Shown piece by piece: positions 4,032 through 15,542 of a DNA stretch of 64,000 nt. The stretch's first letter is position 1. Each line of letters starts with the position of its first letter. Origin of the DNA: Bradyrhizobiaceae bacterium (lineage in GTDB: Bacteria > Pseudomonadota > Alphaproteobacteria > Rhizobiales > Xanthobacteraceae); contig CP078014.1 in the NCBI GenBank assembly GCA_020544565.1, positions 2,854,016-2,918,015 on the forward strand, given 5' to 3'. A model generated the notes under the pieces. It saw only the letters and a list, made by a program, of their open reading frames with translations, made no database searches and was not told the DNA's origin. A program made the translations under genes and the position numbers.

Positions 4032-5057
4032 TCAGTTCTTGGGCCGCAGCTCGACGCCGACGGCCTTGTTGACGAAGCGTAGCGTATAGGCGCGGCGATA
4101 ATCGACGTCGCGCTTGACCACGCCCGCGCGCACCATCTTGTCGAAGAAATCCGCCATGCGGGCGTCGCTCATCGCGCCGATGCCGTCCTTAATGGCGTCG
4201 CCCGAATCGACGATGCCATGCTGCTTCATCTTCGCCACCGAATAGGCCAGGAGATCGTCGGTCATCTCGGGATTGGCCTTCTTGATGAGCTCGTTGGCAG
4301 CGCGGTTGTCGCCATAGAGATAGCGATACCAGCCGATGATCGAGGCATCGACAAAGCGCTGCACCAGATCGGGGTTCTTCTCCGCGAAGGCGCTGCGGGT
4401 TTCGATCAGGGTCGAATAGCTGCTGAACCCGTAATCCGCCAGCGGGATGACGGTGGGCACGAACTTCGCCCGCCGCTCTACCGCGAACGGCTCGGAAGTG
4501 ACGTATCCCTCCATGGCGCTGTTCTTGTCGACCAGAAACGGCTGCGGATTGGAGGTGTAGGGCTTGACCTTGTTCTCGCTGAAGCCGAACTCCGCTTTCA
4601 GCCACTGGAAATAGGTCGGCATGCCTTCCTTGGAGACGAACAGCGTCAGCGGCTTGAGATCCGCGAGCGTTGAGACCTTCGCTTCCGGATGGGCGAGGAA
4701 AACCTGCGGGTCCTTCTGGAAGATCGCGGCGACCGCGACCACCGGCACCTTGTTGGCGGCCGCGTCGAAGGTCTGCAGCGAATTCGCGCTCATGAAGAAA
4801 TCGAGCTTGCCGGCGACCATCTGGATGCGGTTGTTGACGTTGGGGCCGCCCGGCACGATGGTGACATCGAGGCCGTAGCTCTTGTAGGTGCCGTCGGCCA
4901 GCGCCTGATAGAATCCGCCGTGCTCGGCCTGCGCCACCCAGTTGGTGCCGAACGACACCTTGTCCAGCTCCATCGCGCCCGCCGGCATCAACGGCATCGC
5001 CGCCCACGCCAGCACGCCCGCCATCAATGCCCGGATCGAAAACCTCGCTTGCACCAT
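4032..5057 (-). CDS. ABC transporter substrate-binding protein, NMT1/THI5-like (ThiY/SsuA family)
   Basis: A 341-residue periplasmic binding protein. The start at 5057 has a GGAG site about 8 bases upstream and yields a signal peptide (residues 1-27, basic n-region, cut after PAGA). Mature residues begin MELDKVSFGTNWVAQAEHGG, then FYQALADGTYKSYGLDVTIV, the NMT1 fold signature of binding proteins for thiamine pyrimidine precursors, nitrate, sulfonates and similar small ligands. It is the first gene of the minus-strand operon and faces a creatininase-family gene across 93 bases. The ligand is unknown; a pyrimidine, amide or formamide-like compound is a reasonable guess from the neighbouring hydrolase. 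Confidence 0.88.
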   Translation of the reverse strand: MVQARFSIRALMAGVLAWAAMPLMPAGAMELDKVSFGTNWVAQAEHGGFYQALADGTYKSYGLDVTIVPGGPNVNNRIQMVAGKLDFFMSANSLQTFDAAANKVPVVAVAAIFQKDPQVFLAHPEAKVSTLADLKPLTLFVSKEGMPTYFQWLKAEFGFSENKVKPYTSNPQPFLVDKNSAMEGYVTSEPFAVERRAKFVPTVIPLADYGFSSYSTLIETRSAFAEKNPDLVQRFVDASIIGWYRYLYGDNRAANELIKKANPEMTDDLLAYSVAKMKQHGIVDSGDAIKDGIGAMSDARMADFFDKMVRAGVVKRDVDYRRAYTLRFVNKAVGVELRPKN

Positions 5058-10540: not shown

Positions 10541-11437
10541 TCAGTGGCTGTGGGGACGCAATTCGGAGGGAATGCCGCCGGTCTCGAGGCCGCCCCGGGC
10601 GATCCATGCTTCCGTGCTGCGGATCGCGCGGGAGATGTGCTCGTCGCTGCGGGTGAAATCGTAGGGCGATCCCACCAGCGGGCACAGCGGCGGCACCACG
10701 CAATAGTCGACCGCCTGTTCGAGATATTCCAGCTCCGCCGTCATCTGCCGCGAGATCAGCAGGGTCAGCGCATGCAGCGCGGTCGCCACCGCCCCGACCG
10801 GCGGATCCCCCCCGGCGCAGGCGAAGCCTGTCGGCAGAATGATCAGGCGCTGCGCGCCCTTCGCGATGGCGACACGGATCGGCGTGTTGCTGGAGATCGC
10901 GCCGTCCGCGAGATAGCGCCCGCCATGCTTCACCGGAGCGAACGCCCCCGGGATCGCGGTGCTCGCCACGATGGCTTCAACCGCAGAGCCGTGCGACAGC
11001 ACCACGGTGTCGCCGGTGACGATATCGGTGGTGACGATGTGAATGGGAATGACGGCATCTTCCAGATTCCGATACGGCAGGTGATCTTTGATCAACCGAC
11101 GGATACCATCATGGGGGATCAGGAAGTCCTTGTGCCACAGGAAGCCGATGAAGGCATGCACCGACACCGGGAACACATCCTGCCGGCGCAGGCCGCGCCA
11201 GATGGCGGCGAGGGCCTTGACGCCTTCGAGAGTCGGCACGCCGGCGTAATAGGCGCCGTTCATTGCGCCGACGCTGGAGCCGACCACGAAATCGGGCCGC
11301 ACGCCATGGGCGGCCAGCGCCTGCATCATCCCGACCTGGATCGCGCCGAAGGAGCCGCCACCGGCGAACACAAACGCGGTGTTCTGTTTCGTCCGTCCGG
11401 CGCCATCAGGCGCCGATAAAGTGGCTCTCGTATCCAT
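10541..11437 (-). CDS. Patatin-like phospholipase
   Basis: A 298-residue predicted lipid acyl hydrolase. It has the patatin oxyanion motif GGGSFG (residues 26-31), the nucleophile elbow GSSVG with Ser55, and the catalytic DGA with Asp178, so it should be active. No signal peptide is seen with the ATG at 11437, which points to the cytoplasm. A GTG at 11551 would add a 38-residue extension that looks partly hydrophobic; neither start has a clear ribosome-binding site. The gene lies on the same strand as the nickel-type transporter upstream, but 153 bases apart. Confidence 0.85.
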   Translation of the reverse strand: MDTRATLSAPDGAGRTKQNTAFVFAGGGSFGAIQVGMMQALAAHGVRPDFVVGSSVGAMNGAYYAGVPTLEGVKALAAIWRGLRRQDVFPVSVHAFIGFLWHKDFLIPHDGIRRLIKDHLPYRNLEDAVIPIHIVTTDIVTGDTVVLSHGSAVEAIVASTAIPGAFAPVKHGGRYLADGAISSNTPIRVAIAKGAQRLIILPTGFACAGGDPPVGAVATALHALTLLISRQMTAELEYLEQAVDYCVVPPLCPLVGSPYDFTRSDEHISRAIRSTEAWIARGGLETGGIPSELRPHSH

Positions 11438-11590
11438 GTTCGCGACCACAGCTTCGCGACGGGCCGGCAGCGACCGGCAATCCAGCGTCGCCGGCGCTGT
11501 CAGAAGACATAGGGTGATGAGGTCGCCCCGTCCACATCGGGCGTCGCTCACGCAGGTCAGCCCTGCGCGCCGCGCCGGTAACCGCCGCCC

Positions 11591-12286
11591 TCAGGCAAGC
11601 GCCGTGGCATAGATCGTGGTCGCCCCGATCACCACGGTGACCACGCCGACGGCGACCTGGATGATGCGGTTGGCCCAGGTCAGCCGGCGCGCGGACATCA
11701 CCAGCGGCACGGCGATCACGCCCGACAGCGCCCCCATGCCCAGCATCGACCCGACGCCGAACAGCAGGATGTAGAGCAGGCCATAGACCGGCTGCGTCAC
11801 CTGCGTCGCCGCCAGCACCAGCAGCGCGCCCGAGCCGGCCATGCCGTGCATCAGCCCCACCAGCAGCGAGCGCCAGCGGAAGCCATGAGCATGGGCGTGA
11901 GCGCTTCGCTCATGCGGCACGGCCTCTCTGGCGTGGCTGTGGAGATGGAGATGCTCGACGCCGGCGCCATGGCGGTGGCGGTGGAAGTGGACGCGGTCGC
12001 GCCACACCCGCCACAGCACATGCGCGCCGAGGCCGACCAGCATGACGCCCACCGCCGTCTCCAGCGGTTGCGACAGATGCTCGGGCACCGCGCGGCCCAG
12101 CAAAATCGCCGCCCCCGCAAACACGAACAGGGTGATGGTGTGGCCGAGCCCCCAGGTCAGCCCGTGGCGGATGATGTCGCCGGTATTGGTGCGCCGCGCG
12201 GCGATGCTGGACACCGCGGCGATATGATCGGCTTCAAGGGCGTGCTGCATCCCGAGCAGAAAGCCGAGCCCCAGAATCCCGAACAT
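11591..12286 (-). CDS. HupE/NiCoT-like metal permease with His-rich loop (probable nickel transporter)
   Basis: A 231-residue inner-membrane protein with about six hydrophobic segments. Residues 15-21 are HALEADH, the H-x4-D-H signature of nickel/cobalt permeases (NiCoT and UreH/RcnA-like families). A cytoplasmic or periplasmic loop at about 100-134 carries 12 His residues, which could bind metal. The gene begins 64 bases after the TonB receptor stops, on the same strand, so the two form an operon. An exact NikR-type operator precedes that operon, which makes nickel the best-supported substrate over cobalt. Direction of transport (uptake rather than efflux) is inferred from pairing with an outer-membrane receptor. 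The ATG at 12286 is preferred over a GTG three codons upstream. Confidence 0.82.
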   Translation of the reverse strand: MFGILGLGFLLGMQHALEADHIAAVSSIAARRTNTGDIIRHGLTWGLGHTITLFVFAGAAILLGRAVPEHLSQPLETAVGVMLVGLGAHVLWRVWRDRVHFHRHRHGAGVEHLHLHSHAREAVPHERSAHAHAHGFRWRSLLVGLMHGMAGSGALLVLAATQVTQPVYGLLYILLFGVGSMLGMGALSGVIAVPLVMSARRLTWANRIIQVAVGVVTVVIGATTIYATALA

Positions 12287-12350
12287 GCGTCCCACACTTT
12301 CGTTTGCGGCCCGGATATTATCCGACGGAACGCGGTTGCAAAGGGCCTTG

Positions 12351-14480
12351 TCAGAACCGGCCCATCAGGGTCAGGCGCACCGCGAACGGCTCGACGGGAT
12401 GGAGCACGCGGTCCATCACCCCGGTCTCGCACACCGGGCTCGGCGGCGGGCTTGGGGAATTGCATTTCGCGAACAGCGCATCGGTCTTCAGCAGCGAGCC
12501 ATAGGCGTAAGTGATCTGGTCAGACTTGCTGTCGGTCAGGTTGAAGCCTTCGAGCTGGATGCGCCATCCGTTGGCGAAATTGTAACCGACCTGCCCGTTG
12601 AGCAGGCCGGTCGCCGGCGACACGAAGGCGCCGTCCTCGGTCAGCGGCCGCGGCCCGAAATAGCGATAGCGCAGCGCGCCGAACCAGCCGGTCTTTTCGC
12701 CGATCCGGATTCCCGCCGAGGCGATCACGTTCGGCGCCCCCGGGATGCGGTTGCCGGGCGCGTTGCCGATCTGGGCTTCGGGAAAGCCCGCCAGCTCCGC
12801 ATACGCCGCCGCCTGCGCAAAATCGGTGCCGCGAAAGCGCGCATGGGTCACCGCGATATCGCCGTCGAAGCTGAGCCACGAATAGGGGCGGTAGTGATTG
12901 GACCACTCGACGCCGTAGCGGCGGCTCGGCCGGCTCGGCTCGGTGTCGCCGGCATCGCCGACAAACAGGATCTCGGATTCCGAATCGAGCAGGAACAGCG
13001 AAAGCGTGCTTTCGAGATGCGGAATCACCCGCGTCCGGATGCCGATCTCCGCGCCGCGCGTCTTGACCAGGAACGGCGAGGCGTCCGCCGACGTGTCGGG
13101 ATCGGTCGGCGATACCTTGATGGTGACGCCGCGCGCGTCGTTGCTGTGAAAGCCCTCGCCGGCGTTGAAGAAGAATTCGGTCTTGTTGAACGGGCCGACC
13201 ACGAGGCCGAATTTCGGGCTGCCGATCGAGGCCGTCGCGTTGCCTGAATTGGCCGGCGTCAGAAACGAATTCACGCTCGCGGTGTAGAAGTCGCCACGAT
13301 AGCCGACGGTGGTGCGCAGCCACTCGGTCCAGTGCAGGGTGTTTTGGACATAGAGGCCGACGCTGCCCTCCTTCACCTTGTCGGCGCGGGTGCCGGACAG
13401 AAACTGCCGCCGGTAGGTGTTCGACAGCGACACGTTGATGTCGTCGTAGCGGCTCTGGACGCCGATCTCCGTCTGCATCGGCAGGCCGGCGAACGTGCTG
13501 TTGAAGGTGTGCGACGCATTGAGGCCGGCGACGACGCGGTCGTCGTGCTGGTGGAACTGGTCGCCATAGACCGGATCGCTGAGGAAGAAGGTGAAGTTGT
13601 TGTAGAGATCGAGCGAACTCTTGATCGCGTAGAAATTCACCTTCGACGATCCGTCGCGGTCGGTCCGCGCCCACTGGCCCGAAATGGAGAAGCGGTCGGA
13701 GCGGCCGCCGTCGGTGGAATCGAGCGCGCCAAAGCGGCCGACCAGCCCGGAAGTGATAGCGCGCAACGGAATCTGGTCGGTGGAATTCCAGCGGTTGGAA
13801 TAGGCCATGCCGGTCAGCGAGAAGCCGTTGGCGGCGGTGCCTTCCGAGTAACGCACCACGGCGTTGAGCTTGCGCAGATTGTCGGGATTGTCCCACGGCC
13901 CGTTATAGCCGTTGACCTCGCCGGCCACGAGCAAATGGCCGTTGCCGACCTTCGTCGAGGTGATGCCGAGGCCCCTGACATAGCCGAAGCTGCCGACCGT
14001 CATCAGCGCCATGGATTTCTCGATGGTGTCGATCAGGCCGATATGGGCGACGCCAACCGAAGAGAAGTCGCCCTCGTCGGCGAAATACGGACCCTTGCGC
14101 ACGTTGATCGACGAAATCAGTTCCGGAATCAGGAAGTTGAGATCGGCGTAGCCCTGGCCGTGCCCGTGGGTGCGCATGTTGACCGGCATGCCGTCCACGG
14201 TGATGGCGAAATCGGTGCCGTGATCGAGATTAAAGCCGCGCAGAAAATACTGGTTGGCCTTGCCGTCGCCGCTGTGCTGCGTGACCATCAGGCCGGGCAC
14301 CACCTCCAGCGCCTCGGCGGGCCGCGAGAACGGCCGCGCATTGACCTCCGCGCCCGACACGTTGCGCTCGCTGGCGGCGCTCACCGGCACATCAGTGGCC
14401 TCATCCGGCGCGGACGCGGGGACCGCCTGCACCGTGCGCGGCCGGTCGCCGGACCGCGGGCGCGGCGCCACCACGTTCAC
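12351..14480 (-). CDS. TonB-dependent outer-membrane receptor, probably for a nickel complex
   Basis: A receptor of at least 709 residues. The plug domain contains LMVTQHSGDGKANQYFLRGF, then the typical DGMPVN and PELISSINVRKGPYFADEG segments; the barrel ends in RLTLMGRF with the final Phe. The GTG at 14480 is the most upstream legal start in frame, yet the same frame runs open back past 14582 and there reads WPLLGLAVTGWIAVATEATA-QS, a clear signal peptide, with no ATG, GTG or TTG before it. Two ATGs (14596, 14637) lie in the other two frames. Thus the true start needs a one- or two-base change, a rare start codon, or a sequence error. A NikR-type box lies upstream at 14709-14736. The HupE/NiCoT-like permease follows. 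Confidence 0.82.
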   Translation of the reverse strand: MNVVAPRPRSGDRPRTVQAVPASAPDEATDVPVSAASERNVSGAEVNARPFSRPAEALEVVPGLMVTQHSGDGKANQYFLRGFNLDHGTDFAITVDGMPVNMRTHGHGQGYADLNFLIPELISSINVRKGPYFADEGDFSSVGVAHIGLIDTIEKSMALMTVGSFGYVRGLGITSTKVGNGHLLVAGEVNGYNGPWDNPDNLRKLNAVVRYSEGTAANGFSLTGMAYSNRWNSTDQIPLRAITSGLVGRFGALDSTDGGRSDRFSISGQWARTDRDGSSKVNFYAIKSSLDLYNNFTFFLSDPVYGDQFHQHDDRVVAGLNASHTFNSTFAGLPMQTEIGVQSRYDDINVSLSNTYRRQFLSGTRADKVKEGSVGLYVQNTLHWTEWLRTTVGYRGDFYTASVNSFLTPANSGNATASIGSPKFGLVVGPFNKTEFFFNAGEGFHSNDARGVTIKVSPTDPDTSADASPFLVKTRGAEIGIRTRVIPHLESTLSLFLLDSESEILFVGDAGDTEPSRPSRRYGVEWSNHYRPYSWLSFDGDIAVTHARFRGTDFAQAAAYAELAGFPEAQIGNAPGNRIPGAPNVIASAGIRIGEKTGWFGALRYRYFGPRPLTEDGAFVSPATGLLNGQVGYNFANGWRIQLEGFNLTDSKSDQITYAYGSLLKTDALFAKCNSPSPPPSPVCETGVMDRVLHPVEPFAVRLTLMGRF

Positions 14481-14708
14481 CGTGGGCAGCGCGGTGGCTT
14501 CATCCGGCGCGGCGCTTTGCGCCGTCGCCTCCGTTGCGACCGCGATCCAGCCGGTGACGGCGAGGCCCAGGAGCGGCCATACGCGGCACGCGCCATCCGT
14601 CCGCGCAGGGCGACCCCGTGCCGCCGCTGCGCGACATGCCGATCCGATCCGTGAAATTTCTACGCCCCTGCGTGCTCATCCTGCCCGGGGCGGACGCTCG
14701 CACGCAGA

Positions 14709-14736
14709 GTATGATATTGTCAATAATTCATCATAC
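14709..14736 (-). promoter_or_regulatory. NikR-type nickel operator before the TonB receptor
   Basis: The sequence is GTATGA, 16 bases, TCATAC: exactly the consensus half-sites and spacing of the E. coli NikR operator. The arms extend to 7 bp (GTATGAT / ATCATAC). On the minus strand a TTGACA (14719-14724) lies within it, a possible -35 element, so bound NikR would block transcription when nickel is plentiful. It sits between the carbonic anhydrase stop and the receptor start region. No nikR gene is in the window. Confidence 0.85.
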
Positions 14737-14780
14737 ACGCAGCTTCGCCCGCCCGAGCCGGGCGCGACGATGGGCCGGCG

Positions 14781-15542
14781 TCAACCGCGCCGATCGTGAT
14801 CCTGGGTGCAACAGCCCCGCGCCTCCAGCGTCGCCACATCGATCGCGCCGAACGCCGCAATCGCCTGCTGCCGCATGGAGCTCTGGGGCTCGACCGGCTG
14901 GAACACCCGCTGGTCGATGGACGGCAACCGGTCGCGCATCTCGACCGACGACAGATGCGGGCCGAGATCGCGCATCAACCCGTCGTGGATGGCGTAGATC
15001 CAGCCGTGCAGATGGAGCGGCTGCCCCCGCGCCCAGGCATTCTCCACGATCGGGGTAGCGGCCAGCCGGCGCACCTGCATCTCGACATTGATCTCGCACA
15101 TGCGGTTGATGCGCTCGGCCGGATCCTCGATCGCGTCGAAGGTCGCGCGATGCTTGCGGTAGAACATGGAGATCGGCAACAGCCAGTGATCGAGCATCGC
15201 GCTGTGCTCGCCGGCGATGGCGCGGTTGACGCCGCTGCATCCGTAGTGGCCGCAGACGATGACGTGTTCGATCCTGAGCTGATCCACCGCGAATTCCAGC
15301 ACCGACAGAATGTTCATGTCGCTGGTGTGAACGACATTGGCGATGTTGCGGTGGACGAAGATCTCGCCGGGGTCGAGGCCGAGCACGCTGTTGGCGGTCA
15401 CCCGGCTGTCGGAGCAGCCGATCCACAGGTAATGCGGGGTCTGCTGTTCGGCCATGCGGCGGAAATAGTGCGGGTCTTCTCTGGTCTGCCGGTTCGCCCA
15501 GGCGACGTTCTGGTCGAAAAGGTGATCAAGCGTGGCCGACAT
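14781..15542 (-). CDS. Beta-class carbonic anhydrase
   Basis: A 253-residue enzyme interconverting CO2 and bicarbonate. The beta-class zinc site is complete: CSDSR (Cys plus the Asp/Arg dyad) and H-x2-C in CGHYGCSG. The segment HRNIANVV is also typical. Length is a little above the usual 210-230 residues owing to a C-terminal tail ending in CCTQDHDRRG. The ATG at 15542 has GGGAG about 10 bases upstream; an upstream in-frame extension to 15599 is not needed. It is a single gene and may supply bicarbonate for carboxylases. Confidence 0.93.
   Translation of the reverse strand: MSATLDHLFDQNVAWANRQTREDPHYFRRMAEQQTPHYLWIGCSDSRVTANSVLGLDPGEIFVHRNIANVVHTSDMNILSVLEFAVDQLRIEHVIVCGHYGCSGVNRAIAGEHSAMLDHWLLPISMFYRKHRATFDAIEDPAERINRMCEINVEMQVRRLAATPIVENAWARGQPLHLHGWIYAIHDGLMRDLGPHLSSVEMRDRLPSIDQRVFQPVEPQSSMRQQAIAAFGAIDVATLEARGCCTQDHDRRG

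Follow-up and report, generated by a model that had tools for sequence, protein, structure and literature searches.

A predicted NikR-controlled nickel import unit of a TonB-dependent receptor and a NicO-family permease in a Bradyrhizobiaceae genome

The window, a stretch of 64,000 nucleotides of a Bradyrhizobiaceae genome, carries on its minus strand two adjacent genes preceded by a palindrome of the NikR type. The first gene encodes a TonB-dependent receptor comprising a plug and a beta-barrel (12351–14480, minus strand; 709 aa from an internal GTG), as revealed by Pfam matches to Plug (E 1.3e-15) and TonB_dep_Rec (E 1.8e-24) and by structure prediction. The second begins 55 nt after the receptor stop and encodes a permease of 234 aa (11591–12295, minus strand), assigned by alignment and by its match to NicO PF03824 (36.9 bits, cut-off 27.7), which is the sole NicO match in the genome. 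The permease possesses the motif HALEADH (H18, D23, H24) and a loop with 12 His in residues 103–137, so that the H-x4-D-H signature and the loop of about 35 residues described in the initial annotation are both present. The predicted operator, GTATGATATTGTCAATAATTCATCATAC, is located at 14709–14736 and is listed without a strand; in the sense of the genes, which lie to its left, it reads GTATGATGAATTATTGACAATATCATAC from 14736 to 14709. Its extended 7-bp arms are GTATGAT...ATCATAC. The position, the arms and the receptor downstream all agree with the earlier description.

A search for further sites, proposed with that description, found no exact match to GTATGA-N16-TCATAC besides the one at 14709–14736, either in the window or in the whole 4.13 Mb genome. 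At up to two mismatches the genome contains 15 places (one exact, one with one mismatch and 13 with two), and a reversed control pattern gives 15 as well; nothing but the exact match is thus distinctive. The genome encodes one intact nikR, located on the same contig 2.6 Mb from the receptor (L005 1438-2127, minus strand; genome C1:239906-240133); the homologue whose absence would have spoken against nickel was thus found. The encoded protein scores 212.8 bits with the NCBIfam equivalog model (cut-off 83) and aligns with E. coli NikR (1q5v) to residues 1–132 of 133 (E 5.5e-43). Its N-terminal sequence MQRVTITLDDDL is identical to that of E. coli NikR. The residues aligned to His76, His87, His89 and Cys95 of the E. 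coli protein are also kept.

The operator is conserved among relatives, and its significance derives from this conservation and not from shuffles of the window. In the comparison set of 198 genomes of the same family, the exact pattern was found in 58 genomes at 64 sites, and the reversed control in none. Thirty-six of these sites precede a receptor match by less than 600 bp and six by 600–1700 bp (42 in total), nine stand beside nikR alone, and 13 are near neither. Among the latter, four adjoin a NiCoT or NicO gene detected by similarity search, one a CbiM/NikM-like gene, and one a distant TonB receptor (26%) together with a gene judged HupE-like by eye and having no NCBIfam match; the other seven have no assigned neighbour. 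Genomes with a receptor match at E <= 1e-60 (n = 65) contained the exact site in 43 cases, versus 15 of the 133 others (Fisher 5e-15), and nikR in 58 cases, versus 33 of 133 (1e-18). Likewise, nikR is present in 54 of the 58 site genomes versus 37 of the 140 others (4e-19). All these p-values overstate independence, since the genomes are related.

The distance between the site and the receptor falls into two classes. The receptor loci number 100 distinct ones, 97 of them long enough for the site test, and in 72 of the 97 an exact site precedes the receptor or a permease-receptor pair: at 0–600 bp from the receptor in 38 loci and at 900–1600 bp in 34. Ten of the remaining 25 have a site with one mismatch at the same places. 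Among testable loci of at least 70% identity, 22 of 27 have the near site. Within the flank examined, nikR accompanies 25 of the 38 near-site loci and none of the 34 far-site loci; in many relatives it is divergent from the receptor and only a few hundred bp off.

The pairing of the receptor with a permease recurs in two arrangements. The small NicO permease follows the receptor in some members of the genus, as in the window; in L071 and L030 it is located upstream. Bradyrhizobium-type loci have, in 41 cases, a larger NiCoT-like gene ahead of the receptor, and any site found there lies ahead of the NiCoT-like gene. Two Bradyrhizobium-type NiCoTs scored 428 and 391.6 bits with TIGR00802. Counting these 41 together with L071 and L030, and including a few copies, 43 loci have an upstream permease. 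Taking the start codon nearest to the stop, 38 of the 43 have the receptor ATG 20 nt ahead of the point where the permease stop codon ends, the exceptions being L034, L069, L093, L071 and L030. In locus L055 (3725-4792), for example, the ATG is at 4773 and the permease stop ends at 4792. The overlap appears to be real because each of the 38 loci shows an identical ATG offset together with a signal-like start, and it suggests coupled translation.

Receptor and permease also occur apart under the same type of site. Permeases detached from a receptor were found under an exact site in L174 (a NicO protein, 80% identical), L162, L163 and L166 (NiCoT; L162 and L166 pass the TIGR00802 cut-off), in a count that started from the sites and so comprises site-bearing permeases only. 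In genome G168, the 80% identical permease and the receptor each have a separate exact site, and the same holds for a NiCoT and the receptor in G024 and G075. Genes of nickel enzymes adjoin the receptor in some relatives. Hydrogenase small and large subunits follow it in L046 (the large one below the models' cut-offs, E 8e-272), ureG and urease alpha adjoin it convergently in L052, and larC lies upstream of the permease and the receptor in Afipia sp. 1NLS2 (L071 1848-3155). LarC participates in the biosynthesis of the nickel-pincer cofactor.

The receptor model (predicted local distance difference test, pLDDT, 88.5; predicted template modelling score, pTM, 0.89) has the ordinary TonB-receptor fold. 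The closest solved fold is PqqU/YncD 9c4o (Z 34.4, 614 residues, root-mean-square deviation (rmsd) 2.9), yet the identity is 18%. Another PqqU/YncD structure, 6v81, matched with Z 33.3 over 614 residues (rmsd 3.0), and FecA with Z 33.2, tied with YncD, both about 1 Z below PqqU. The fold is ordinary, the identity low and FecA tied with YncD, so it says nothing on the substrate. The closest named relative, in the Afipia genome bin L037, is 93% identical. In an alignment of 48 receptors chosen for diversity from 109 loci rows, His69, His87, His105, His107 and His445 are invariant in all 48, and these residues may be candidates for contact with a metal or a chelate.

In the permease, HALEADH and all 12 histidines of the loop are invariant in 15 of 15 aligned sequences, the window included; the 15 were chosen from 26 loci at >=69% identity, several of which are copies or incomplete. 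The label HupE/NiCoT-like given initially needs correction to NicO. A HupE reading was rejected, as HupE/UreJ PF04955 is not among the Pfam matches of the permease and has no match in the genome. Neither is the protein a NiCoT proper, giving no match to TIGR00802 at E <= 0.001 and 21.9 bits with the NicT model NF052500 (cut-off 450). No model named UreH is among its profile matches. The predicted structure is poor (pLDDT 57.7), and a search for solved relatives by sequence gave one meaningless match (E 0.47).

The genome contains intact genes of the urease gamma, beta and alpha subunits (alpha 567 aa), whereas NiFe hydrogenase and LarC were looked for in the genome and not found. Since urease is present and NiFe hydrogenase was not found, urease is the likely nickel user here; of the two users suggested earlier, hydrogenase or urease, only the second finds its genes in this genome.

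Operator conservation, co-occurrence with nikR, the permease-receptor pairing and the nickel-enzyme neighbours in some relatives favour the nickel import proposed in the initial annotation. Very probably, the two genes form a NikR-repressed unit importing nickel across both membranes and supplying mainly urease. Nickel-loaded NikR, encoded far off on the same contig, would cover the 28-bp palindrome and repress both genes, presumably on a shared transcript. When nickel is scarce, both receptor and permease would be made. TonB energy would then drive nickel, probably as a chelate, through the outer-membrane receptor, and the NicO-family permease would carry Ni(II) inward across the inner membrane, mainly for the supply of urease. 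The His-rich loop of the permease may hold or sense the metal.

Several observations weigh against this assignment. Twenty-five of the 97 testable loci lack an exact site, and 15 of them also lack a site with one mismatch; the larC locus L071 is among the loci without an exact site. No exact site was found anywhere in 22 of the 65 receptor genomes, and seven of the 65 lack nikR. Four of the 58 site genomes have no nikR, including G075 with its sites before receptor and NiCoT. The nikR of the genome studied here has no recognisable operator: the scan of 1 kb covering its start and about 800 bp upstream revealed no site with fewer than four mismatches, and autoregulation of nikR was therefore rejected. 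As to the proteins, no solved relative of the receptor was found by sequence at E <= 0.001, the NicO score of the permease is modest, and the permease gives 30.2 bits with the Ni/Co efflux model PRK10019 (cut-off 195, E 2.6e-7). In addition, the receptor gene has no canonical start codon before its signal core, as discussed below.

Import of cobalt for B12, or of both metals, is also conceivable for this unit, though improbable; NikR would then serve as a nickel-sensing brake. By its family names the NicO superfamily includes carriers of both metals, and in L173 the gene close to the site scores above the cut-off of a model named cobalt transporter CbiM. UreH stands beside B12 genes in Moritella, as mentioned in PMC2667541. 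However, the sites are of the NikR type, the genome has a urease, and the genes adjoining the receptor in L046, L052 and L071 belong to hydrogenase, urease and larC, which argues for nickel.

The start of the receptor gene requires separate consideration. The listed open frame, from GTG 14480, excludes the signal peptide, the frame of which can be read from an ATT (14520–14657, minus strand; cleavage before the Q following TEATA, judged by eye). ATG, GTG and TTG are all absent before the signal-peptide core in this frame. An uncertain candidate ribosome site, AGGGG, is followed after a 7-nt spacer by the ATT, a possible AUU start (14655–14669, minus strand). In 13 of 22 same-genus rows, corresponding to 10 distinct Afipia sequences, a G-rich run is followed after exactly 7 nt by an ATT; the rows include several copies, and the ATT group was chosen after the motif had been noticed. 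The layout was observed in the window and in L037, L150, L008, L151, L009, L039, L010, L153 and L011. A canonical codon is also available in frame nearby in several of the ten (for example ATG in L011 and L039; TTG in L009, L150, L008 and, further along, L037), at positions not common to all ten, and the window gene is the sole member of the group without any canonical start. Other site-bearing genes of the genus have an available ATG (L154, L013, L157), GTG (L012) or either of the two (L022).

A codon-position test was made on five pairs from seven sequences, three of the pairs having common members. The first 28 codons after the ATT demonstrated no third-position excess (summed differences 26, 29 and 23 at positions 1, 2 and 3), and the following 19–21 codons did (14, 13 and 32). 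AUU is possibly the start and is the leading candidate, although unproven; a coding n-region finds no support in the codon-position data. A frameshift or assembly error as the cause of the missing start was rejected, as L037/L149, representing one other genome, keep the spacing from the ATT to the signal core, and as the alternative frame is not kept in L008 or L010 (by eye).

The absent canonical codons and the lack of third-position excess in the first 28 codons would both fit a receptor decaying in this lineage, with no usable start and no export, where only the permease works. We consider this unlikely, because the frame runs for 709 aa without a stop and shares 93% identity with L037, the last 19–21 signal-peptide codons retain the third-position excess, and the operator is exact. 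A more speculative extension of the nickel import model, which we find rather doubtful, is that a group of Afipia initiates translation of the NikR-controlled receptor at an AUU behind a fixed G-rich ribosome site, and that this would add a second, translational throttle to nickel repression. The gene infC is an example of such an AUU-start throttle.

It is very unlikely that the permease is a nickel exporter similar to RcnA and unrelated to the receptor. A His-rich loop also occurs in RcnA, and the similarity to PRK10019 noted above, weak and below the cut-off, points in the same direction. However, the permease has the HX4DH motif, which is a motif of nickel importers, and it stands under the repressor of uptake genes, in L174 even away from the receptor. 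Furthermore, in Bradyrhizobium-type loci a NiCoT-like carrier takes its place. That the palindrome is a chance match or the site of another regulator (Fur, Zur or Irr) can be practically dismissed: a match at <=2 mismatches is not rare in the window (at least one in 31 of 100 shuffles, itself a weak control), but 64 exact sites stand against none of the reversed control in the 198 genomes, and 54 of the 58 site genomes carry nikR.

The operator of the import unit contains TTGACA (14718–14723, minus strand), a candidate -35 element oriented to the receptor. TTGAC facing the receptor was found in 26 of 33 distinct near sites, never in the reverse sense, and in none of 21 distinct far sites. It may represent a promoter -35 lying under the repressor. 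A sigma-70 scan of 11400–14800 scored no promoter, so the idea rests on the conservation at near sites; a sigma-70 promoter over the operator was set aside on account of that scan.

Some exact sites in relatives may mark other genes. In L168, one of the seven sites without an assigned neighbour, around 2857 in a nikR-bearing genome, is followed at about 1 kb by what looks by eye like a urease alpha frame, and may mark a NikR-controlled urease operon. In L164, a site around 2240 is located where an open frame of 801 codons with a signal-peptide-like stretch begins; tblastn with the window receptor gave no match there at E 1e-4, and the frame is possibly another NikR-controlled outer-membrane protein. 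In genus g23 (L173 and L130), exact sites are near NikK-like (by eye) and CbiM/NikM-like genes, and the genus has divergent NikR-like genes (E about 1e-14). As to the surroundings of the unit, the neighbouring genes of the window have Pfam domains of carbonic anhydrase, patatin and glutamate synthase.

The comparison of genomes gives clear evidence for assigning many TonB receptors of the Bradyrhizobium and Afipia types, a large group, to nickel import, with two permease types replacing each other while receptor and operator remain the same. Substrate tests, in particular of which nickel chelate is taken up, and the naming of many TonB receptors would thereby become direct. The fixed overlap of the NiCoT-like gene and the receptor in Bradyrhizobium-type loci is useful for studying how hydrogenase and urease are supplied in soybean symbionts and related bacteria.

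Compared with known systems, the permease resembles NiCoT (HoxN/HupN/NixA) and UreH by its HX4DH motif and its place in the NicO superfamily, but differs from NiCoT by lacking a TIGR00802 match. The E. coli NikR operator has the same arms as the window site, and NikR of this genome aligns with its E. coli counterpart over its length; however, the E. coli target nikABCDE is an ABC importer, whereas here the site precedes a TonB receptor and a secondary permease. In Helicobacter pylori, FrpB4 and FecA3, TonB-dependent nickel receptors described as NikR-repressed, and the nickel permease NixA offer a further likeness. These receptors belong to another group, the NikR operator has another form, and the genes are not known to be paired in a single unit.

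A table in PMC7142613 has two entries for nickel, Bll6948 of Bradyrhizobium diazoefficiens and Daro_3944, with the mark Pr and an attribution to Rodionov et al. 2006, and PMC11247825 names Bll6948 among the TonB receptors known for nickel. Bll6948 is likewise a TonB receptor, assigned to nickel, from a related genus. A cluster of predicted Ni and Co receptors appears in PMC2771747, and PMC2667541 refers to NiCoT and others as being under NikR control and to a UreH predicted as a nickel-specific carrier. The pairing, described initially as having no assigned function, does have parallels, as Bll6948 is in print and Bradyrhizobium-type loci pair the same receptor family, mostly under NikR-type sites, with a NiCoT-like permease. 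In those loci the NiCoT-like gene is mostly upstream, whereas the window has a small NicO protein downstream. TonB nickel receptors are thus already in print, and the window is an added example with a different permease and gene order.

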